From an uncultured Clostridia bacterium (lineage in GTDB: Bacteria; Bacillota; Clostridia; Oscillospirales; Ruminococcaceae): DNA of 64,000 nt. The notes under the pieces were generated by a model. It ran no database searches. It was not told where the DNA came from and saw only the letters and a list, made by a program, of their open reading frames with translations. The stretch is from NCBI GenBank assembly GCA_947624675.1, contig CANQLI010000002.1:124001-188000 (forward strand), written 5' to 3'. The position numbers and the translations under genes are program-made. Positions 3,523 to 55,381 of this stretch are shown piece after piece. Numbering within the stretch: position 1 is the stretch's first letter; each line of letters opens with the position of its first letter.

Positions 3523-3533
3523 TAAATTGATTT

Positions 3534-3554
3534 GTAAATTGAGTGTAAATTTAC
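3534..3554 (+). promoter_or_regulatory. Inverted repeat, possible operator for NAD synthesis genes
   Basis: GTAAATT (3534-3540) and AATTTAC (3548-3554) form a perfect 7-base inverted repeat with a 7-base spacer. It lies just downstream of the predicted start of transcription for nadB. NAD synthesis in Firmicutes is commonly repressed by NiaR-type regulators; linking this site to one is a guess from position only. Confidence 0.35.
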
Positions 3555-12751: not shown

Positions 12752-12864
12752 TTTATGAATAAATTATGAATATTGTAAACATTTTGTTACGAAACATGAT
12801 TTATTTTATGAAGAATGTACGTTTGCGTACATTTTTTTCGTTTTTTACGCTATTAGTGGGAGGG
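12752..12864 (+). repeat. 113-bp dispersed repeat, copy 1
   Basis: First of three gap-free copies (others at 35072 and 55213; about 85% identical by hand count). Conserved parts: TGTAA-N8-TTAC(A) at 12775-12792, the 8-pair palindrome AATGTACG-TTTG-CGTACATT at 12814-12833, and CGCTATTAGT near 12848. A 16-base segment of fixed length but variable sequence separates the last two. An open frame from ATG 12808 begins MKNVRLRTFF and runs 31 codons. The copy ends 18 bases from the trpA stop codon and faces it. The plus-strand palindrome is followed by seven T, as in an intrinsic terminator. Confidence 0.85.
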
Positions 12865-12882
12865 GTAAAAATAAAAAACTAT

Positions 12883-19398: not shown

Positions 19399-19719
19399 TT
19401 TTTGCAATAAAAAAGCCTACCATCCGTAAAACCAAAGCGGTTTTGGGACGATAGACGAAAAATCCTCGTGGTGCCACCCAATTTCCCGATAAAAATATCG
19501 GCTCGGCAAGGTACGCAACAGCCTACGCTGTATCAATACCTCTTTTCTTTAACGCAGAAAACAAACGGCTAAGGATACTCTCAAAAAAATGATTTCACCA
19601 AGCTCCTCACAAATCCATTCGCACAAATTCGTATGTATCGGACTCACACCGCCGCCGACTCTCTGTGACACCGTAACAAGCGCTACTTACCTTTGCTCAT
19701 AGGATTTTATTTATTGACT
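19399..19719 (-). promoter_or_regulatory. Tryptophan T-box riboswitch controlling the trp operon
   Basis: Leader RNA of about 320 bases. Stem I shows AGAGAGTCGG and GTGTGAGTCCG-type motifs near 19640-19670 and a GAA-TGG specifier (TGG at 19615-19617), the Trp codon. The antiterminator T-box TGGCACCACGAGG is at 19464-19476. In the acceptor bulge TGGC, the variable C matches the G73 discriminator of bacterial tRNA-Trp. Uncharged tRNA-Trp would stabilise the antiterminator and let trpE through. The competing terminator is listed separately. Confidence 0.93.
19409..19456 (-). terminator. T-box terminator hairpin
   Basis: On the minus strand an 11-pair stem (19446-19456 with 19415-19425, several G-T pairs) extends through a second stem, AAAACC/GGTTTT, and is followed by TTTTTT (19409-19414). 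Its 5' side lies directly after the T-box sequence, so antiterminator and terminator compete. Confidence 0.85.
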
Positions 19720-35040: not shown

Positions 35041-35072
35041 AAAAAAAACAGAACCTGCCTAACAGATTCTGT
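35041..35072 (-). terminator. Terminator of the pilus operon
   Basis: On the minus strand ACAGAATCTG (35063-35072) pairs with CAGGTTCTGT (35048-35057; one G-T) around a 5-base loop, followed by a run of T (35041-35047). It lies beyond repeat copy 2, so the repeat is inside the pil transcript. Confidence 0.85.
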
Positions 35073-35184
35073 TTGTGAATAAATTATGAATATTGTAAAC
35101 TTTTTGTTACAAAACATAAGTTTTTTTATGAAGAATGTACGTTTGCGTACATTTTTTCCAAAAAAAGCGCTATTAGTGAGAGGC
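35072..35184 (+). repeat. 113-bp dispersed repeat, copy 2
   Basis: Same length as copies 1 and 3, with no gaps. The palindrome AATGTACG-TTTG-CGTACATT is intact at 35134-35153. The variable block here is CCAAAAAAAG. The open frame from ATG 35128 reads MKNVRLRTFFPKKALLVRG and stops after 27 codons. The copy ends 19 bases from the pilT stop codon and faces it. A strong minus-strand terminator lies immediately on its far side. Confidence 0.85.
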
Positions 35185-35203
35185 GAAATAAAAAAGGAAA
35201 AAA

Positions 35204-36253
35204 TCACCTGATAAATTCAGAAAGGTCGCTTTTATCTGGAGATACCGCAAAGGCGTTTTCCCTGGAAATTTTACCCTCTGCCACAAGACGGGCGAGGTCG
35301 GCGTTTAATGTGTGCATACCGAAATTAGCGCCCGACTGCATAACCGTCTGAAGCTGATGACACTTGTTTTCACGGATAAGGTTACAAGCGGCATCTGTTC
35401 CGATAAGTATCTCTGTCGCGGCTATCCTTCCCTTTCCGTCGAGGGTGGGGATAAGTGACTGAGTAATAACGCCCTTCAAAACGCTTCCTAGCTGAGTTCT
35501 TATCTGATTCTGTTTTTCCGGCGGACAGGAGTCAATTATTCTGTCGATAGTCTGAGCCGCACCGATAGTGTGGAGCGTGCTCATAACGAGGTGTCCGGTT
35601 TCCGCTGCGGTAACAGCAGCTGAGATAGTCTCATAGTCACGCATCTCGCCGACAAGAATAATATCAGGGTCCTCACGAAGCGCCGATCTTAACGCTGCCG
35701 AAAAGCTTTTGACATCCCTGCCGACCTCTCTCTGATGAATGGTAGACTTATCGAGTGTGTACATATACTCGATAGGGTCTTCAATGGTCAGGATGTGTTC
35801 GGGGCGGGTGTGATTTATATGGTCGATCATCGCCGCAAGAGTAGTGGACTTACCGCTTCCTGTAGGACCTGTAACAAGTATAAGACCTCTCGGCTCATCA
35901 GCAAGCGAAGTGAGAACACTCGGAAGGTTGAGTGCCGACAAGGTAGGTATCTTGTCATTTAAAAGTCTTATGGTAGCGGCAAGCTTTCCTTTAAATCTAA
36001 AAACATTTACCCTCTGGCGGCATAAATCCGGTGTTTCAAACGCAAAATCAAGATCGTTTCCCGACTCCAGCTCATTAAGCTGCTCATCGCTCAACAGCGA
36101 CACAATCATTTCTCTTGCGTCCTTACTTGTTATAGTGTGACCGCAGTCGTAAAGAGTTCCGTGGATTCTCCAAGTTGTCGGAATGGAAGCCGAGAGATGA
36201 ATATCGCTCACGCCCTTTGTTCTTGCCTCCATTACAAGCTCATTTATGTTCAT
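35204..36253 (-). CDS. pilT: Type IV pilus retraction ATPase PilT
   Basis: 349 residues. Walker A is VTGPTGSGKSTTLAAM, followed by the Asp-box TIEDPIEYMY, Walker B DPDIILVGEMRDYETI and the His-box ETGHLVMSTLHTIGA. The short N-terminal PAS-like part (DIHLSASIPTTWRIHGTL) and the lack of cysteine motifs distinguish it from PilB. It powers pilus retraction, giving twitching or adhesion force. It is the last gene of the pil operon, 18 bases after pilB. Confidence 0.94.
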   Translation of the reverse strand: MNINELVMEARTKGVSDIHLSASIPTTWRIHGTLYDCGHTITSKDAREMIVSLLSDEQLNELESGNDLDFAFETPDLCRQRVNVFRFKGKLAATIRLLNDKIPTLSALNLPSVLTSLADEPRGLILVTGPTGSGKSTTLAAMIDHINHTRPEHILTIEDPIEYMYTLDKSTIHQREVGRDVKSFSAALRSALREDPDIILVGEMRDYETISAAVTAAETGHLVMSTLHTIGAAQTIDRIIDSCPPEKQNQIRTQLGSVLKGVITQSLIPTLDGKGRIAATEILIGTDAACNLIRENKCHQLQTVMQSGANFGMHTLNADLARLVAEGKISRENAFAVSPDKSDLSEFIR

Positions 36254-36271
36254 AATAAGTTCTCACTTTCA

Positions 36272-37948
36272 TCAATCTGAATAATATGTTACCTTTAAAA
36301 CCTCTTCGGGAGTTGTTATTCCCTTTCTTACAAGGTCTATTGCGCTTTCACCGAGCATCTTCATTCCCTGTACCTTCTTACAGTATTCGATCATATCCTC
36401 GGTCTCCGCTCCGTTTGCGATCATTCTTTTAAGCTCCTTGTCAACAAGAACCATTTCATGAATGGAAACTCTTCCCTTATAGCCGGTATTGTTACAGAGG
36501 TTACAGCCTCTTCCCTTTCTGATTTTCGGAATATCGTCTCCTATTACAGCCTTCTCCTCGGCGGTCGGTTCACATTCATAAGCACAGTTTTCACAGACCT
36601 TTCTGACAAGCCTCTGTGCAACTATCCCGACAAGTGAGTTTGCAACAAGATACGGAGCAAGTCCCATATCCTCAAGACGCACGATAGTAGAGACCGCATC
36701 ATTCGTATGAAGTGTTGACAAAACGAGGTGTCCGGTTATAGCGGCACGAACGGAAATAGAAGCTGTCTCAGCGTCACGCGTCTCACCGAGCATTATAACA
36801 TCGGGGTCCTGACGCAAAAGGGCTCTTAATCCTATCTCAAAGGTAAGTCCCGCGGCAGTGTTTACAGACATCTGATTTATTTTGGGAAGCGCTTTTTCAA
36901 CAGGATCTTCAATAGTCGAAATGTTGACCTGTTTCTGAGCTATTCTGTCAAGAATCATATAAAGAGTGGTAGTTTTACCGCTTCCGGTAGGTCCTGTAAT
37001 ATAGATTATACCGTTTGGTGCGGCAAGCATCTTTAGAATCTTTTCATAAGCGTCCGGCTCCATTCCGAAATGTCCGGCTTTATCTACAACAGTGTTCGAC
37101 GAAAGAAAACGAAGAACCGCCTTTTCACCGTGGACGGTCGGAATTACCGACACTCTGACTGAAATGTCATAGCCCTCAACGACCGCACGAAAGTTTCCAT
37201 CCTGAGGGATTCGCCGCTCGGCAATGTCAAGGTTCGACATAATCTTGATTCTTGCGATAATCGATGCGTGTAAAGATTTTGAGAGCGTGACATAGTCAAT
37301 TATCATTCCGTCGACTCTCATTCTCACCTGTGTAAACTCTTCAAAGGGTTCTATGTGAATATCCGAAACATTAGTTGTATAGCCCCTTGCAAGAAGACTG
37401 TTTATAAGATTTATTACCGGGACATCATCGTCCTCATCAGTCGCATCAAGAGTAGGTATCTCAATGTCCGCCGCAGATATGTTAGCCTTTTTAGCTGCGA
37501 TCTTTGCTCCTACCTCAGAATAGTTGTGCTCGATAGCGCTGTCTATCTGAGCGTGCTCAGCCAGAACTATCCTTAGCGGCATTCCTGCAATCTGTTTTAA
37601 ATCCTCCTGTGCATAAAAATTAAGAGGATCGCTCATAACAACTGTCATTCTGCCGTCAGTTATATCAGCCGCCAGTGCATTATACTTTACGGCAAGCTGC
37701 TTTGGTATCTTAGCTGTTACATCGGTATCTACACGAAGATCAGCTATGTTTATAAGCTCGATATCAAGCTTCTTTCCCAAAGCCTCAAGGACCTGACGCT
37801 CTGTTACAAAGCCAAGCTCCTTTAAAAGGTCGCCTAAACGCTTTCCCTTTCCGGCCTCAGTCTTTTGATAGTCTAAAGCTTCCTTTATGTTATCCTCAGT
37901 GATGTACCCGTACTCCTTAAGCACCTCACCTATCGGTATGTTTTTCAA
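36272..37948 (-). CDS. pilB: Type IV pilus assembly ATPase PilB with MshEN domains
   Basis: 558 residues. The N-terminus has two MshEN-like segments (PIGEVLKEYGYITEDNIKEAL; KRLGDLLKELGFVTERQVLEAL). Such segments bind cyclic di-GMP in MshE and some PilB proteins, but the first lacks the R-L-G arginine. The ATPase core has ITGPTGSGKTTTLYM, STIEDPVE, DPDVIMLGETRDAETA and TGHLVLSTLHTNDA. A tetracysteine zinc site (CENCAYEC and CNLC) completes it. It drives pilus extension. Located between the pseudopilin genes and pilT. Confidence 0.94.
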   Translation of the reverse strand: MKNIPIGEVLKEYGYITEDNIKEALDYQKTEAGKGKRLGDLLKELGFVTERQVLEALGKKLDIELINIADLRVDTDVTAKIPKQLAVKYNALAADITDGRMTVVMSDPLNFYAQEDLKQIAGMPLRIVLAEHAQIDSAIEHNYSEVGAKIAAKKANISAADIEIPTLDATDEDDDVPVINLINSLLARGYTTNVSDIHIEPFEEFTQVRMRVDGMIIDYVTLSKSLHASIIARIKIMSNLDIAERRIPQDGNFRAVVEGYDISVRVSVIPTVHGEKAVLRFLSSNTVVDKAGHFGMEPDAYEKILKMLAAPNGIIYITGPTGSGKTTTLYMILDRIAQKQVNISTIEDPVEKALPKINQMSVNTAAGLTFEIGLRALLRQDPDVIMLGETRDAETASISVRAAITGHLVLSTLHTNDAVSTIVRLEDMGLAPYLVANSLVGIVAQRLVRKVCENCAYECEPTAEEKAVIGDDIPKIRKGRGCNLCNNTGYKGRVSIHEMVLVDKELKRMIANGAETEDMIEYCKKVQGMKMLGESAIDLVRKGITTPEEVLKVTYYSD

Positions 37949-37985
37949 AATTCATTCACATCCCTTTTACAAAGAATATTTATCT

Positions 37986-38630
37986 TTACTGTGCAAGCGT
38001 GTAATTTATATAAAATTCTTTTTCAGTGTTCGTAAAAACCGACTTATCTTCAGGGTTAGTTTTTGTAAGCTCTGCCGTTATACAGTCACTATCCTTTATA
38101 TTTAAAAGCTCGATGGTATAATCACGCTTTACAACAAGCTCGCCCTCGCTTGAATACACCTCGACAGTAAGAGGTAAAATACTCACCGGGTTTTTACTAC
38201 CGGCATCAGATATTTTGATTTTATCACAATCAAAACTTACCTCAACATCAAAAGCGCCTGTGTCGCACACTTCATCAAACTTAAAATCTGCTCCGTCCTT
38301 AAGAGCTTTTCTGTTTATGGAAACAGGAACCTCATCACCCTTTTTTGCGATTTTTATACACTCGCTGTAGCTATCCTTAACATCTGCTACACTCTCATCA
38401 GCTTCTTTGTCCTTTACAAAGCCAATAGATGTCGCAAACGAAAGTCGGTTGTTCAAAACATCATATACACTGTCGCTGACCTGTGAAGCCTTAACCGTGT
38501 TAGCGTTTCTCGCATAGATATTTCCTCCCGAAACAACTATCGCGCTGGCTATTGCAACAAGTATAGCAAAAACCGCCAATGTAACTGTAACCTCTACCAG
38601 GGTAAATCCGTTTTTATTAAGCTTTTTCAC
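37986..38630 (-). CDS. Prepilin-like protein (type IV pilin methylation motif)
   Basis: 214 residues. The leader MKKLNKNG is cut before FTLVEVTVTLAVFAILVAIASAIVV, giving the classic +5 Glu and hydrophobic helix. I choose the GTG at 38630: it has GGAGG 11 bases ahead and yields a normal short leader, while the earlier TTG (38654) overlaps that site. The globular part has no recognisable domain. It is probably a minor pilin or a major pilin with a large head. Confidence 0.82.
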   Translation of the reverse strand: MKKLNKNGFTLVEVTVTLAVFAILVAIASAIVVSGGNIYARNANTVKASQVSDSVYDVLNNRLSFATSIGFVKDKEADESVADVKDSYSECIKIAKKGDEVPVSINRKALKDGADFKFDEVCDTGAFDVEVSFDCDKIKISDAGSKNPVSILPLTVEVYSSEGELVVKRDYTIELLNIKDSDCITAELTKTNPEDKSVFTNTEKEFYINYTLAQ

Positions 38631-38661
38631 AGCAAGGCTCACCTCCGTTATCAAAATTAAG

Positions 38662-38985
38662 TCACTTTATCCTATAATAATAAAAACTTCCGATTATGCT
38701 TTCCTCTCCGGAATCGGGAGCTGCCTCCACACGGTCAAGAACTAATTTAGGCAACTCTCCCGTATCTCCTTCGATTTTTATTTTTACATCCGTATCAGTA
38801 CCCTCGGAAGCATCCTGCATTTTTTCAACTACCTGTTCATATTCGCTTCTGACTTCACCTGCACGATTTATCATTTTAAGCGACATCGAAATTCCTGCAA
38901 AGGTCACCGCAACAGTCAGAGCCAGAATAGACATAGACACAACTACCTCAACGAGCGTCATACCCTTACGGTTTTTTCCTGTCAA
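38662..38985 (-). CDS. Small prepilin-like protein
   Basis: 107 residues. The leader MTGKNRKG is followed by MTLVEVVVSMSILALTVAVTFAGI with Glu at +5. The TTG at 38985 has AGGAGG 9 bases upstream; the GTG at 38994 touches the ribosome site and is rejected. The rest is a short helical and beta region. It lies between the PilX-like gene and the larger prepilin and is probably a minor pseudopilin that primes assembly. Confidence 0.8.
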   Translation of the reverse strand: MTGKNRKGMTLVEVVVSMSILALTVAVTFAGISMSLKMINRAGEVRSEYEQVVEKMQDASEGTDTDVKIKIEGDTGELPKLVLDRVEAAPDSGEESIIGSFYYYRIK

Positions 38986-39008
38986 ATAAAACACCCTCCT
39001 TCGTAATG

Positions 39009-39485
39009 CTAGTCAATATAGACAATGTTTCCCCATGTAGGAGTGTCTTTACTGTCGGTAAGTACATTTCTTTGAACCCTTGCGACCAGTGTACAGGCTT
39101 GTGGCGAAGATTCGCTTGATCCGGTAATAGTCAATACGACATCGCTTGTCTTTGTTATCTTGACTGTTGCATACTCGCCGTCTTTATCAGAAGAAAGCGA
39201 AAGCTCTATACTTTTTCCGTTTGCGCCGTTAGAAAGATCCTTCACCTTTTTATATACCTCACTTGCGGCACCGTCAGACGGTTTTGCGCTTATGAAGGAA
39301 TACACCGTTTCGATTGCGCTTTTGGCGTTATAATAGCTTTGCGTCATATCAAGTGTATCGCTTTTTACATTGTTATAATAATAGCTTGAAAGGGTTATGA
39401 GTCCCGCCGCCAAAACAGCCAGGATTGATGACGCAAAAACGACCCACATAAGAGCCGCTCCCTTTTTATTACACCCTTTCTTCAT
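39009..39485 (-). CDS. PilX/GspK-like pilin-family membrane protein
   Basis: 158 residues. MKKGCNKKG is followed by AALMWVVFASSILAVLAAGLITLSS, a pilin-like helix without the +5 Glu, as is usual for PilX/GspK tip proteins. The following YYNAKSAIETVYSFIS matches the PilX-type start of the head domain. ATG 39485 is preferred over GTG 39494 on spacing from AAAGGG. The absence of Glu5 suggests a position at the pilus tip. Confidence 0.72.
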   Translation of the reverse strand: MKKGCNKKGAALMWVVFASSILAVLAAGLITLSSYYYNNVKSDTLDMTQSYYNAKSAIETVYSFISAKPSDGAASEVYKKVKDLSNGANGKSIELSLSSDKDGEYATVKITKTSDVVLTITGSSESSPQACTLVARVQRNVLTDSKDTPTWGNIVYID

Positions 39486-39518
39486 TTTATTCACCGCCCT
39501 TTAAGCAATACCTTTTAC

Positions 39519-40202
39519 CTAAGATGCCTTAAGTGTTGTTTCCTCTTCCACGCTCTGTTCACTCTCAGCTTCCGGCGAATACACAAAGGATACAATTGAG
39601 AAGTTCATCTCCATTTCCTCCTGTTTTTCGTTATTCACCTGCATAGTAAATGTCAGATCCTTCATATACATTGATTTCTGATTCGCTACAAGTTCTATCA
39701 GCTTTACAAGCTGTGGATATGTTCCTGATGTGGTAAGCTGTGTGGTAACGCTCTTTATATTATCAATTTGCTGAGAATTAGAGTCATTACTTTCGCTCTG
39801 TGTCTGCTGCTGTGTTTCAGTCGTCTGCTGATCAGTCAACAACGCATCCGTAACGCTTTGTGCCTCGGAAACGCTGAGCGATATGACCTCAAGTCCGCTT
39901 TTACTTATCAAAGAGCTTATCACATAATCTATGTTGCTTGCTTTAATGTCGCTTTGAAAGCTCTTTGAAATTTCCGAAATATCCGATAAAAGCTGTTTGT
40001 TCTGGTCTTCATAAAACTGAGCCTGCTGTGTTTCTAAAACAAGCGCATCATAATCCGAGACCTTTGCGAAAAGGTCAGATTCCTTTTTATCATTGTCCTC
40101 CATCATCGGGAATATCAGATACTTTAAGCCGACAACCAACACCAAAACTGCCAGCAAGGCATACAAAACTATTATCTGTCTTTGTGTCACGCCCTTAAGC
40201 AT
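39519..40202 (-). CDS. pilO: PilO-like inner-membrane alignment protein
   Basis: 227 residues: a short cytoplasmic start, one membrane helix (IIVLYALLAVLVLVVGLKYLIF), a coiled coil (about 35-85), a Gln/Thr/Ser-rich insert (TDQQTTETQQQTQSESNDS) and a ferredoxin-like C-terminal region. Sequence similarity to PilO is low. The topology, size and place directly after the pilN-like gene (overlapping by one base) make the case. Confidence 0.75.
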   Translation of the reverse strand: MLKGVTQRQIIVLYALLAVLVLVVGLKYLIFPMMEDNDKKESDLFAKVSDYDALVLETQQAQFYEDQNKQLLSDISEISKSFQSDIKASNIDYVISSLISKSGLEVISLSVSEAQSVTDALLTDQQTTETQQQTQSESNDSNSQQIDNIKSVTTQLTTSGTYPQLVKLIELVANQKSMYMKDLTFTMQVNNEKQEEMEMNFSIVSFVYSPEAESEQSVEEETTLKAS

Positions 40203-40813
40203 TACTCAGCCGCCTCACTTTCTTCTTCGGTCGTAATAAAGGTACACATAACATTAAACGAGTAATCCTCGTCTCCGATCTTTGAATACCCCGTATAAGT
40301 AACAGTTTCAAAAAACTCAAGGTTTTCTATATTCTTTACAATACCCGATATATCGTTGTAGTTTCCAGTTTTAAGCTTGAATGTAAACGATATTCCGTCA
40401 TTTGAATAGTCCATAAGTTCAACATCAGCCTTTCCATTGCAGGCTGAACGCACATTGGCAAGAAGCTTTGAGCTAAGATAACTGTACTTCTCAGCCTGAC
40501 GCTTTGAAGCGTCCTCGGCGTTTTTAAGTATCTCGAGGTCCGCTGTAAGCTTCCTATTACTCTTCTCAAGTTCTATTACATCATTTGCCGATGCCTCAAG
40601 ACCGGCTATCTTATTCTCATAATCAGCTATATCGTTATCGAGCGACATACCTTTAAAAAGGTTTACAAGCACCAGCGCTGCCATAATCAAAACTATTACA
40701 GCACCCGGGATAACATACATTATCGTCTTCATACGCTTTTCGTGCGCCACCGGGTCAAAAGAATATCTCGAAAGAAGATCTATTTTAGTCTTTTTTGCAC
40801 CTAACAATGCCAT
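40202..40813 (-). CDS. pilN: PilN-like inner-membrane alignment protein
   Basis: 203 residues. The N-terminus DLLSRYSFDPVAHEKR is cytoplasmic and would contact PilM. One membrane helix (VIPGAVIVLIMAALVLVNLF) is followed by a coiled coil (about 55-110) and a C-terminal beta region. This is the PilN plan, and the gene order PilM-PilN-PilO is the classical one. In other species the motif near the N-terminus inserts into PilM; here the short sequence is not obviously the same. Confidence 0.78.
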   Translation of the reverse strand: MALLGAKKTKIDLLSRYSFDPVAHEKRMKTIMYVIPGAVIVLIMAALVLVNLFKGMSLDNDIADYENKIAGLEASANDVIELEKSNRKLTADLEILKNAEDASKRQAEKYSYLSSKLLANVRSACNGKADVELMDYSNDGISFTFKLKTGNYNDISGIVKNIENLEFFETVTYTGYSKIGDEDYSFNVMCTFITTEEESEAAE

Positions 40814-40833
40814 AACTTATTATTCCTCTCTGA

Positions 40834-41715
40834 CTAACTTAAATTTCCTATAACCGTGAACAGTCTGCTGAACATTTTACCGTCTGTTATCGTACAAGAA
40901 CCCGGCTTTTCCAGTTCTTTAAAGCTTACGCCGAGTGCTGATGACATCTGTTGTGAGACCTCCGATATATTTTCAGGTATATCCCCTGTAAAATAAACAT
41001 CGGTAATATCAAAACCTGTTTTTTGTGATTTATTAAACTGGATAAGCGAAGAAAATATCCTGTACAGTTCATCTGATGAATCCTCAGACCCGACCTCTTC
41101 CAAAAGTCTTGATCTTGATGAGTAGTTATAGTCTCCGTTTACAAAAAGTGTATTTGAAAGATTGTTTCCGTCAAGATTCGCAACGACATATGTACTTCTC
41201 GATAGCTCCTTATAAAGTGAAGCGGCATCTATCACCGAGGACAAAGCCGTGTTTATAGATTCAAGCTTGATTCCTGCCGTTTCAAAAAGGTTTATATATC
41301 CCTCTATAAAATCCCTCTCGACCGCACACGAGAGTATATCCATTCCGCCGTCCTTGACCTTCTGATTCAAAATCCTGTAATCGTACAAAAGCTTATCGTA
41401 ATTTTCTACCTCTGAATACTCATCCTTTATTATCTCTAAAAGCTTCTTGTCGTTAGCGACCGGGACCCTAAACCTTTTTGACAATACAGAAGTAGAATCA
41501 ACTATTAGCCGTACACTTTTTGAAAGCTCAGGATTATCTGCCCAGACATTTTTTATAGCATCGGAAAGAATATCCTCATTCATTATCATTCCGTTTATCA
41601 AAAGCCCCTCCTGTATCGGCGCTTTCACACAGCTTTTTACATTTACCGAGCCTTTAGTTCCGCTTCCCTGTACCGCATTTATATAATTATTTGATATTAA
41701 AACCGAAACCGCCAT
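40834..41715 (-). CDS. pilM: PilM-like actin-fold protein
   Basis: 293 residues with an FtsA/PilM-type layout: an N-terminal MAVSVLISNNYINAVQ where ATPases have the phosphate loop, VRLIVDSTSVLSKRFRVP, then STYVVANLDGNNLSNTLFVNGD as the second phosphate loop. The nucleotide loops look weak, so ATP binding is uncertain. It should form the cytoplasmic ring component that binds PilN. Confidence 0.75.
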   Translation of the reverse strand: MAVSVLISNNYINAVQGSGTKGSVNVKSCVKAPIQEGLLINGMIMNEDILSDAIKNVWADNPELSKSVRLIVDSTSVLSKRFRVPVANDKKLLEIIKDEYSEVENYDKLLYDYRILNQKVKDGGMDILSCAVERDFIEGYINLFETAGIKLESINTALSSVIDAASLYKELSRSTYVVANLDGNNLSNTLFVNGDYNYSSRSRLLEEVGSEDSSDELYRIFSSLIQFNKSQKTGFDITDVYFTGDIPENISEVSQQMSSALGVSFKELEKPGSCTITDGKMFSRLFTVIGNLS

Positions 41716-41796
41716 AACAATACCTCTTTAAAGTTTATTCATATCACCGTTAAATATTTAACCGTTTATCCGATGATATTTATATTCTTAATATCA

Positions 41797-42996
41797 TCAG
41801 TAGTTTCCTGCCTGCTCAACCTGACTGTACATCGAGAACATAGGCATAAGAACAGACAGCATTATTATTACAACGAAAAATGCCAATATAACTATCATTA
41901 TAGGCTCTATCATTGTCATAAGCTTCTTTACAGCCATATTCGAGTCATAATCATAGGCGTCAGCAATAGACACTAACAGAGAATCAAGCTGTCCCGTTTC
42001 CTCTCCGACGGCTATCGTATCAGCCAGCTTTCTGTCAAATCCGTCTACCGTCATAAGCGAGCTTGAGAGCGGGTTTCCTGCTCTTACCGATCTTATGACA
42101 TCTTCAAACTGTGATGTGAGATACCTGTTTCCTATCGTATCTTTTGAAATTTGAAGCGCGTTTATTATGGAAAGTCCGCTTGAGTAAAGAGAAGCCAGCG
42201 TTCTTGAAAACCTTGCGGTATATATTATCTTTAAGAGCTTTCCGATAACCGGCGCTTTAAGCTTAAGCTTATCCTTTTGATACTTTACCGCCTCAATCTG
42301 AAAAACAAAGTACAGAATTACACACACGACGGCGACTACTATCGCTATCTGTATAAAATTATTTGTAAGGGCATTAGATATACCCATTACGACCTTTGTT
42401 ATTGCCGGAAGCTCCATTCCCTCAAAAACATCGGCAAACATCGGTACGACAAATGTCATAAGTCCTACCGCAACCAAAACAGTCAATATACCGAGTATCA
42501 TAGGATATGTAAGCGCGCCCTTTACACTTTTTGTGAGCCTATGGTCCTTTTCGTAATGATCAGCCATCTTTAACATCGTTTCGTCAAGGCGTCCCGACGC
42601 TTCTCCTGCCTTTACCATATTTATGAGCATCGGCGGAAAAGTCCTTCCTAAAAGCTCCATAGCGTCAGACAGAGCTATTCCCCTCTTGATAGATGTTGAT
42701 ACTTCCGTAAACGCATACTTTAGCTTCGGCGAAAGATCCCTATTCGTAATTATATTCATCGCACGGACAAGTGATACTCCGGCGCCAAGCATACTCGAGA
42801 TCTCTCGGCAAAATGTCGATATTTCTTCTGCCTTAAGCTTTTTGTTCCTGTTTTTATCTACCTTTTCCGTAAAGCTTGAAAGATAAAGGCCCATATCCTT
42901 AAGAGCCTTTTTAAGCGCATCCGGACTTGCGGCATTTAAAGCACCTTTTTTTACCTTTCCTGCTATATCCTTTGCAGTATATTTGTAAAGCGGCAT
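41797..42996 (-). CDS. pilC: Type IV pilus platform protein PilC (GspF family)
   Basis: 399 residues with two GspF domains. The first is around 60-190 (ISTFCREISSMLGAGVSLVRAM, GEASGRLDETMLKMADHYEK) and the second around 260-390 (FSRTLASLYSSGLSIINALQ, GEETGQLDSLLVSIADAYDY). Three membrane helices are evident: about 165-190, 218-240 and 365-390. It is the membrane platform that couples PilB and PilT to the pilus. First gene of the operon. Confidence 0.93.
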   Translation of the reverse strand: MPLYKYTAKDIAGKVKKGALNAASPDALKKALKDMGLYLSSFTEKVDKNRNKKLKAEEISTFCREISSMLGAGVSLVRAMNIITNRDLSPKLKYAFTEVSTSIKRGIALSDAMELLGRTFPPMLINMVKAGEASGRLDETMLKMADHYEKDHRLTKSVKGALTYPMILGILTVLVAVGLMTFVVPMFADVFEGMELPAITKVVMGISNALTNNFIQIAIVVAVVCVILYFVFQIEAVKYQKDKLKLKAPVIGKLLKIIYTARFSRTLASLYSSGLSIINALQISKDTIGNRYLTSQFEDVIRSVRAGNPLSSSLMTVDGFDRKLADTIAVGEETGQLDSLLVSIADAYDYDSNMAVKKLMTMIEPIMIVILAFFVVIIMLSVLMPMFSMYSQVEQAGNY

Positions 42997-43048
42997 AACA
43001 TTCTCCTTACAGCTATTAAACCTACATTATCCTGACCTATACAAATAA

Positions 43049-43077
43049 ATTATATCATACTTTACCGTCAAATGCAA
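43049..43077 (-). promoter_or_regulatory. Sigma-A promoter of the type IV pilus operon
   Basis: TTGCAT (43072-43077) and TATAAT (43049-43054), 17 bases apart, about 50 bases upstream of pilC. I see no riboswitch in the short leader. Confidence 0.75.
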
Positions 43078-43172
43078 CAAAATTTAATGCTTTTTGTCGA
43101 TCACTTTTTAAAAAAAGGTCAAAGGCATTACCCTTTGACCTAATTTATCAATAAACTTATAACTATTATTGT

Positions 43173-43718
43173 CTACTTAAAATATCTGTCGTATAATCCC
43201 TTAAAGCCGCATCCGTGTCTTGCCTCGTCCTTTGACATTTCGTGTACTGTGTCGTGTACAGCGTCATATCCAAGCTCCTTAGCACGCTTAGCTAACTTCA
43301 GCTTACCTTCACAGGCACCGTTTTCAGCCATATATCTCATTTCGAGATTCTTTTTGGTTGAATCGGTAACTACCTCTCCGAGAAGCTCAGCAAACTTTGC
43401 TGCGTGTTCAGCTTCTTCCCATGCAGCCTTTTCATAATAAAGACCTACTTCCGGATAGCCCTCTCTGTATGCAACCCTCGCCATCGCAAGATACATACCG
43501 ACCTCTGTGCATTCGCCGTTGAAGTTATCCTTAAGTCCCTGTACTACCTCTTCGTCAAGACCCTTAGCTGAACCTACTTTATGCTCGTCAGCCCATGTTA
43601 TATCGCTTGACTCGCTCTTTGTAAACTTTTCTCCCGGTACATTACACTGCGGACACTTCTCCGGAGGAGTGTCTCCCTCATAAACATATCCGCATACCGG
43701 ACAAACCCATTTAGCCAT
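43173..43718 (-). CDS. Reverse rubrerythrin (N-terminal rubredoxin), probable NADH-dependent peroxidase
   Basis: 181 residues. The rubredoxin module comes first ([26 protein letters not shown]), then a diiron domain ([67 protein letters not shown]). This reversed order is found in oxygen- and peroxide-inducible rubrerythrins of clostridia. It reduces peroxide with electrons from rubredoxin oxidoreductases. AGGAGG precedes the ATG. A palindrome stands upstream. Confidence 0.93.
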
Positions 43719-55212: not shown

Positions 55213-55325
55213 TTTGTGAACGAATTATGAATATTGTAAACATTTTGTTACAAAATATAGTTTATTTTATGAAAAATGTACGTTTGCGTACATTTTTTCC
55301 TGATTTTGCGCTATTAGTAGAGGGT
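55213..55325 (+). repeat. 113-bp dispersed repeat, copy 3
   Basis: Gap-free relative to copies 1 and 2. The palindrome AATGTACG-TTTG-CGTACATT is at 55275-55294. The variable block here is CCTGATTTTG. The frame from ATG 55269 begins MKNVRLRTFF and stays open well beyond the repeat into the antisense of the next gene. The copy ends 57 bases from that minus-strand gene's stop codon, again facing it. Unlike copies 1 and 2 it has no obvious terminator on its far side. Confidence 0.85.
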
Positions 55326-55381
55326 GATAAAAAATTGAAAAAACAAGAATTACTAAAGAGTTATAAAAATAATCAAAATTA

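Follow-up and report, generated by a model that had tools for sequence, protein, structure and literature searches.

A dispersed 115-bp intergenic repeat of a Ruminococcaceae genome resembles the leader of phage-type packaging genes and may derive from the control module of a gene-transfer-agent-like regulon

What is a short, gap-free repeat doing three times between the genes of a single stretch of 64,000 nucleotides (the window) of a Ruminococcaceae genome? A preliminary description, made from the letters of the window, had placed the copies at 12752, 35072 and 55213, and we confirm them there, all read on the + strand. Its hand-counted identity of ~85% compares with the 88% and 87% that copies 1 and 2 share with copy 3 (over 106 and 111 bases, respectively), while the palindrome AATGTACG-TTTG-CGTACATT and CGCTATTAGT are present in each of the three. 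The distances to the neighbouring stop codons, given as 18, 19 and 57 bases, measure ~19, 20 and 57, and the terminator noticed beyond copy 2 corresponds to a terminator-like hairpin on the minus strand at 35074-35046. The features of the three copies are the following.

12752..12866, + strand: copy 1 of the module, flanked by trpA and a hybrid histidine kinase gene
12774..12790, + strand: copy 1, direct repeat TGTAAA-N5-TGTTAC, exact to the WalR-type box consensus (PMC4168254)
12802..12807, + strand: copy 1, TATTTT, predicted -10-like hexamer, from conservation over 64 copies
12814..12833, + strand: copy 1, P1 hairpin AATGTACG-TTTG-CGTACATT, then a T run; scored terminator-like
12850..12857, + strand: copy 1, conserved 3′ motif CTATTAGT (compare TATTAGTGA in other genera)
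35046..35074, minus strand: intrinsic-terminator-like hairpin adjoining copy 2
35072..35186, + strand: copy 2 of the module, past the end of a T2SSE/pilT-like gene
35094..35110, + strand: copy 2, direct repeat TGTAAA-N5-TGTTAC, from the box search
35122..35127, + strand: copy 2, place of the -10-like hexamer, reading TTTTTT (the sole copy of 64 without A at -11)
35134..35153, + strand: copy 2, P1 hairpin
55213..55327, + strand: copy 3 of the module, found by core match and model
55235..55251, + strand: copy 3, direct repeat TGTAAA-N5-TGTTAC, from the box search
55263..55268, + strand: copy 3, TATTTT, predicted -10-like hexamer
55275..55294, + strand: copy 3, P1 hairpin, scored terminator-like on the + strand
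55311..55318, + strand: copy 3, conserved 3′ motif CTATTAGT

Two other elements of the window may be mentioned here. The minus-strand gene row at 35204-43718, which starts at the T2SSE/PilT-like ATPase and was called the pil operon in the preliminary description, may encode a machinery for DNA uptake, in a genome that also has a GTA-like cluster (see below). A T-box leader (Rfam RF00230) lies at 19441-19709 (minus strand), upstream of the series of minus-strand genes whose last member is trpA.

The repeat belongs to a large family. With up to three mismatches allowed, a 25-base core has 64 matches in the genome of 2.08 Mb, split 36 to 28 between the strands, and the reversed-pattern control has 0, which bears out the earlier judgement that the repeat is not there by chance. 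A profile search of this genome with a model (R1) built from 77 copies, 64 of this genome and 13 of the related genome G001, recovered the same 64 copies, none extra and all full length. Lone fragments of the module were sought at up to three mismatches and none was found: every match to the 3′ part (45 of 45) and to the 5′ part (43 of 43) falls inside a full copy. A longer unit with conserved flanks was rejected, flanks being alike only in L082/L084/L085, in L011/L077 and in the near-duplicate L092/L093, besides a few short matches. The last two (G000:C18 and C21) are near-identical duplicated regions with one copy each, due to either an assembly duplicate or a recent duplication. The preliminary description recognised no named family, and no Rfam family matches the module at the gathering score, whether in the window (searched at gathering scores), in five loci (at E up to 5) or in 20 loci (at E up to 1); snoR31, which overlaps the module in L192, scores 34.4 bits against a cut-off of 60. 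A search of the literature on interspersed repeats in Ruminococcaceae and Oscillospiraceae returned nothing relevant.

Over the 64 copies, the conserved span runs from about -63 to +57, counted from the first A of AATGTACG. The 5′ side of the module carries the half-sites TKAAC, TGAAY, TAAAY and TWAM, spaced 11, 9 and 11, after which come, from 5′ to 3′, the -10-like TATTTT (-12 to -7), the P1 hairpin AATGTACG-TTTG-CGTACATT with its T run, CGCTRTTAGTRRAGG and an A-rich stretch. In the hexamer, T-12 and T-7 occur in 64 of 64 copies and A-11 in 63. A second palindrome of the preliminary description, TGTAA-N8-TTACA, does not hold family-wide: GTTAC is missing at that place in 20 of the 64 copies, and direct half-sites fit better. 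TGTWAH-N5-TGTWAH, the published consensus of the WalR box (PMC4168254), is exact in 38 of the 64 copies and found with one mismatch in 17 more, being exact in two of 22 copies elsewhere; we regard it as a predicted WalR-type site. The window holds a fourth exact WalR-type box (TGTAAATTGAGTGTAAA) at 3533-3549 (+), outside any copy and closely upstream of a gene for an FAD-binding protein.

The + orientation proposed for a promoter is poorly backed by the promoter scan. On the + strand, a sigma-70 pair was found in one of the three window copies, not at the proposed TATTTT, and on the minus strand, the pair GTAACA-16-CATAAT in all three, which matches at 9 of 12 positions and in one region comes close to the level of shuffles. 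A -10 element within TATTAG was rejected: its A is G in 33 and T in two of the 64 copies of this genome. As RNA, the window copies fold moderately better than shuffles (z of -1.9, -3.2 and -1.9). The arms of P1 co-vary to some extent, with TTGCAC/GTGCAA, TTGTAC/GTACAA and TTGCAT/ATGCAA found beside wobble or mismatched intermediates, although the covariation in this genome, G001 and the third species, G011, rests on essentially one base pair, and formal counts on 30 ancestral-type copies were not significant. A second hairpin, P2, was rejected as a covarying structure (at best 111 of 2000 swaps, with L141, which has no P1, dropped), and a second test likewise gave no support. A terminator-like form of this second hairpin is clear in L076 and, by eye, was not seen in most copies of this genome, where the dominating derived copies have a 3′ arm that is A-rich, not U-rich.

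The copies are intergenic (between ORFs of at least 70 aa) apart from three: L073 overlaps an 83-aa ORF, and two are entered at the edge over 16-19 bases by a neighbouring ORF. That they stand beyond a minus-strand operon is true of the three window copies but not of the family, since the strands of the left and right neighbours are mixed over the 64 copies (-/- 24, -/+ 15, +/- 13, +/+ 11; the remaining copy has no gene on its left). In 38 of the 64, the gene on the right is convergent, directed back at the module, and 36 of these genes end within 110 bases; in the other 26 it points away, and 12 of these genes start within 110 bases. A tie between copy sequence and neighbour orientation was sought in 63 copies and rejected: one edge column reached a family-wise P of 0.038, and a pair-wise P of 0.0008 was lost on correction. 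Most of the neighbours are, to the eye, unrelated household genes, and some look like recombination genes (recJ, pcrA, ruvC, dnaA, rarA and priA). One copy (L020; G000:C10:24444) lies just past a gene that looks like a sensor kinase by eye, ~2 kb from an OmpR-type response regulator at C10:26344, and the corresponding site in G001 has no module.

Along the chromosome, the copies are spaced too evenly. The 47 gaps on the 12 contigs with at least two copies have a mean of 25.6 kb and a CV of 0.63, against 0.96 for uniform random placement (P 0.0004), a null that ignores the copies' need for intergenic DNA; none of the 47 is below 5 kb, against 8.1 expected (P 0.0002), the smallest being 5.3 kb. 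A few close pairs could be hidden by assembly gaps at repeats, but the module is only ~115 bp long. The ten gaps in G001, a small number, gave no signal of over-even spacing (P 0.19 and 0.40).

The preliminary description had proposed to look for further copies in relatives, and they exist: beside the 64 in this genome, there are 18 in G001 and up to 10 in G011. BLASTN over 61 genomes returned 13 copies in G001 and one weak match in each of four more genomes. Model R1 found 18 in G001, five in G011 and a weak one in G002, with none in the other genomes (37 of 41), while model R2, built from 30 ancestral-type copies, found 18 in G001, 10 in G011 (five of them weak) and one weak match each in G002, G006, G008, G010 and G017, with none in the remaining 32 of 40. 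A search of viral, plasmid and phage collections for the repeat of this genome's type gave one chance match and nothing else.

By flank alignment, at least 13 copies occupy sites common to this genome and G001, nine by both flanks (L028, L069, L071, L073, L080, L081, L083, L088 and L089) and four by one flank at the expected distance (L011, L065, L072 and L076). Nine other copies have both flanks on one G001 stretch and no module there, G001 having been searched for the module over the whole genome. Seven of these empty sites have 10-184 nt between the flanks (L010, L017, L020, L022, L024, L067 and L079) and two have longer DNA (L007, 750 nt; L029, 452 nt); L013, L019 and L023, with flanks on one G001 stretch but 1.1-10.7 kb apart there, were not counted as empty. 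The count is not a rate, because about a quarter of G001 was fetched for the flank comparison. Some of the differences at G001 sites are larger than the module, and therefore other intergenic DNA has changed as well. The module of L024 directly adjoins the T run in the terminator of the neighbouring gene.

The suggestion that the repeat is a mobile element therefore stands in part. The nine empty sites speak for it; the sites shared with G001, and the want of target duplications, terminal inverted repeats and a matching Y1 transposase, speak against it. Specific forms of such an element were considered and rejected. A MITE with terminal inverted repeats finds none in the 64 copies (ends -80..-50 and +44..+80), and no target site duplication was detected (the best 4-base offset gave 4 of 64 against 0.44 expected, as the best of thousands of offsets). 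A REP or IS200-IS605 derivative meets one Y1 gene in this genome and none in G001, the two genomes searched, and the flanks of that gene are unlike the module; the gene is a single Y1 (IS200-type) transposase gene at L167 (G000:C24:359-715).

P1 identity is 73.8 for shared-site pairs and 73.3 for non-orthologous pairs (15 pairs involving 11 copies of this genome, with L141 of G011, whose P1 is broken, left out), whereas shared-site copies within this genome are 93% identical. Because orthologous pairs are no more alike and a species' own copies are this similar, P1 has been homogenised in each species, whether by conversion or through selection for a single partner. In the same comparison, a slight vertical signal survives in the 3′ part (72.3 versus 66.5).

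The weak matches in relatives led to TTGCAC...GTGCAA plus TATTAGTGA, the ancestral-type module. The pattern TGCACN{4,8}GTGCAN{10,32}TATWAGTGA has 25 matches, which lie in 15 of the 396 genomes of the family and represent 10 of 126 genera; 24 of the 25 are 44-45 nt long, and the reversed control has 0. The absence of the pattern elsewhere says little, because the copies of this genome do not match it either. We sought a downstream ORF at all 25 places, and at six the next 350 nt hold no ORF of 60 aa or more. TerS-like proteins are encoded downstream in L179, L186 and L187 (by PHROGs) and, by eye, in L185 (split over two frames) and L184 (a fragment at a contig end), while L191 is the terS copy of G011. 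At other places the downstream gene is one for a holin (L188), for a replication-initiation protein (L189), for a protein whose primosomal matches are weaker (L193), for small members of phage families that lack an assigned function (L192 and L201) or, by eye, for a CHAP-type endolysin without a PHROG match (L190); L178 appears to be a chance match.

Over 163-336 aa in the fetched loci, the TerL of this genome shares 56-61% identity with the TerL encoded downstream of the module in six other genera (L176, L179, L185, L186, L187 and L195); of these, L176 is a weak R2 match (E 0.019), and the TerL of L195 begins ~1 kb on. Of the 80 IMG/VR loci with the best matches to this TerL, 43 have at least 750 nt of upstream sequence, and the module precedes TerL in 13 of these 43 by a relaxed test and in two by a strict one, against 1, 1 and 0 of 43 in the controls; in 30 of the 43, the relaxed test did not find it. 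L282 from IMG/VR has the same leader as L186. In that collection, at least 590 of 600 candidate stretches encode a TerL relative, the best 80 (L228-L307) with 52-62% identity, and many of the TerL loci are short contigs that may be domesticated clusters filed as viruses.

Expansion may have happened more than once. G082, of another genus, has 10 exact ancestral-module places (L182 and L194-L202), most without a clear phage gene adjoining and several with a common upstream stretch by eye, perhaps an independent expansion. G371 has one pattern match (up to three substitutions, 400 kb), at terS, in a scan that is blind to this genome's copy type and that a diverged family would escape. L099 and L102 are single hairpin-pattern matches in Lachnospiraceae and Lentimicrobiaceae MAGs.

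In the clade under study, the module stands before phage-type genes at three loci. The copy at C3:43124 and its counterparts precede genes for a TerS-like protein, TerL, portal, a 284-aa protein and the major head protein in this genome, G001 and G011, and the locus of this head cluster is the same in the three species, between ispD and an ABC-FtsX gene. Scanned on this genome, the families are Terminase_3 and phrog_2 (TerL), phrog_30703 (portal), phrog_16951 (284 aa) and phrog_3922 (major head protein), after a first gene of 117-120 aa; the genes of G001 and G011 were placed by tblastn and position. The copy at C4:108833 precedes an operon for a small TM protein and a Hol44-type holin, and the one at C1:32900 a CHAP-SH3 endolysin gene, both at sites common to G001 and G011. 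In this genome, the terS, holin and endolysin copies all have the module directed at the gene. A 3′ untranslated regulatory element, as the preliminary description had proposed, is not supported, and we rejected it on orientation and ancestral position: in relatives and other genera, the module stands before phage-type genes and points at them.

The TerS-like 120-aa protein of this genome has no Pfam or PHROG match, and its likeness to phage TerS comes from profile-profile comparison only, in which it aligns to the C-terminal half of the TerS of other genera (hhalign 94%, E 9e-8). The proteins of this genome, G001 and G011 are without the N-terminal part found in L179, L186 and L187, which we presume to be DNA-binding. 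Between this genome and G001, dN/dS is 0.05-0.14 for five phage genes (0.05-0.15 over all comparisons that could be computed) and 0.03-0.06 for three host neighbour genes; these ratios are rough because dS is near saturation, the phage genes being as saturated as the host neighbours. Internal stops are absent from the phage genes but for one, in portal at the G001 coordinates used. The cluster is under purifying selection. The five scanned genes that flank it, a subset of the ORFs in the 20 kb, are of host type. Head and packaging genes that several species keep at a single host locus and under purifying selection, and genes split over loci (the terS operon on C3, holin on C4 and endolysin on C1), are both marks of a gene transfer agent (GTA), and a GTA is probably what the tamed-phage gene set constitutes.

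GTA-like DNA packaging was reported in 2026 as widespread in gut Ruminococcaceae and Oscillospiraceae, with fragments of 4.6-8.9 kb packaged in these families and a possible TerS without an obvious DNA-binding domain (PMC12946183). FpGTA I and II of Faecalibacterium are like the present cluster in that TerS, TerL, portal, scaffolding protein and capsid are encoded in one operon and holin and endolysin at another locus, and in their Ruminococcaceae/Oscillospiraceae hosts (PMC12946183); from gene order and function rather than sequence alignment, we infer that the clusters are homologous. They differ in that no shared control element is described for FpGTA in the main text of that paper, where the words “promoter” and “motif” do not occur. 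Nor did we find in PMC12946183 a statement on how FpGTA-type packaging is switched on, for which the module is a candidate. A precedent is offered by CcGTA of Caulobacter, in which one activator, GafY, serves the GTA promoter and ~18 more promoters, and a palindrome at the GTA promoter is a putative antiterminator site (PMC11150451). CcGTA has ~20 sites and a known activator (PMC11150451), as opposed to 64 copies of one 115-bp module here.

The FpGTA-like gene order and split loci and the one-activator precedent of CcGTA are our reasons to read the module as a control region common to the genes of such a regulon. On balance, we favour an explanation in which a GTA-like, domesticated-phage regulon has a 5′ control module and the repeat is that module in dispersed form. 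Its four half-sites (TRAAC-type, 11/9/11 bp) belong to the type that WalR, PhoP and other response regulators of the OmpR family bind; the RNA is predicted to start at the P1 hairpin, after the -10-like TATTTT, and would then run into the RTTAGTRRAGG motif. The -10-like box and the fixed hairpin would give a structured leader, perhaps for antitermination. Ancestrally, the module would have stood before terS-terL-portal-capsid, holin and endolysin, so that packaging and lysis were co-expressed, and it would later have been copied into intergenic sites round the chromosome in this clade, most strongly in this genome. Uniformity of the P1 core per species is as expected if one trans-acting factor recognises all copies, gene conversion being the alternative. 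Promoter activity, RNA start and trans-acting factor are in all this predictions from sequence. Several results count against the GTA-regulon reading: 38 of the 64 copies face the 3′ end of a convergent gene, a placement that a promoter of protein genes would not need. The outcome of the promoter scan, the missing -11 A of copy 2, the rarity of the WalR-type box elsewhere, the TerL loci without the module, the unsupported P2, the thin P1 covariation, the moderate folding and a TerS matched by profile only weigh on the same side.

Three rival explanations share part of this evidence. The repeat could be a parasitic, non-autonomous interspersed element that sits near phage genes by accident, with its promoter-like part and hairpin as passengers. 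BOX, RUP and SPRITE of the pneumococcus are likewise small, structured, interspersed, species-restricted and mostly intergenic, SPRITE being terminator-like, and bcr1 of the Bacillus cereus group is a short repeat with 11 to 130 copies in one species group and mobile features (PMC3049150; PMC6542083). Species-specific presence, the nine module-less G001 sites with both flanks, the restriction to few species, intergenic position, subfamilies and diverse neighbours all fit. Yet the module accompanies terS in other genera, and in three species it occupies shared loci before the terS, holin and endolysin genes; moreover, it has neither inverted ends nor target duplications, fragments (at up to three mismatches) or a partner transposase (Y1 family only; this genome and G001). 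BOX and RUP do have terminal inverted repeats, with no phage-operon link described in PMC3049150, and bcr mobility is linked to repetition of a TTTAT motif (PMC6542083), whereas no target duplication was detected here. We consider a parasitic origin rather unlikely.

Short two-hairpin RNAs acting in trans, under an OmpR-type response regulator, would resemble the CiaR-dependent csRNAs of streptococci, with their OmpR-type regulator direct repeats, N5 spacing and intergenic DNA (PMC8186281). The direct half-sites adjoin the -10-like hexamer, a hairpin lies at the predicted start, the second hairpin is terminator-like in some copies (e.g., L076), and this genome, G001 and G011 encode 6, 4 and 6 OmpR-type DNA-binding domains, respectively. 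A small RNA family is very unlikely all the same: the 3′ arm is not U-rich in the dominant derived copies, the P2 pairing is unsupported, 64 near-identical copies would be redundant, and the ancestral place is before protein genes. The csRNAs, each with a terminator, number five in S. pneumoniae and 61 candidates in 14 streptococcal genomes (PMC8186281), as compared to 64 copies in one genome, mostly without a terminator. Highly improbable, finally, are pac/cos-like sites at which the particle's packaging or replication machinery enters the DNA, spread so that the whole chromosome gets packaged. The adjoining terS, the even spacing with no gap below 5.3 kb, the orientation mostly indifferent to genes and the uniform P1 within species would suit them; the presence of the module also before holin and endolysin genes, a TerS without its presumed DNA-binding N-terminal part and the ten G001 gaps with no spacing signal do not. 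FpGTA, moreover, is reported to package seemingly random fragments with relatively even coverage (PMC12946183).

Within the reading as a dispersed GTA control module, spread with later loss of close neighbours would explain both the empty sites and the spacing, as would a role in packaging. A bolder form of it, which we think quite unlikely, takes the 64 evenly spaced copies for a chromosome-wide working part of the GTA, with the genome laid out for packaging. Once the GTA was on, one factor at all copies would open or nick the DNA for the packaging motor, or would fire transcription chromosome-wide. The copies would then never lie closer than about one particle-load, the smallest gap being 5.3 kb and the fragments reported for Ruminococcus callidus 4.6 kb. 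As a candidate for a control module common to the terS, holin and endolysin genes, which it marks, the repeat may provide a handle for finding the regulon, its regulator and domesticated clusters in genomes, and its over-even dispersal in 64 copies raises a testable question on how GTAs shape the host chromosome.
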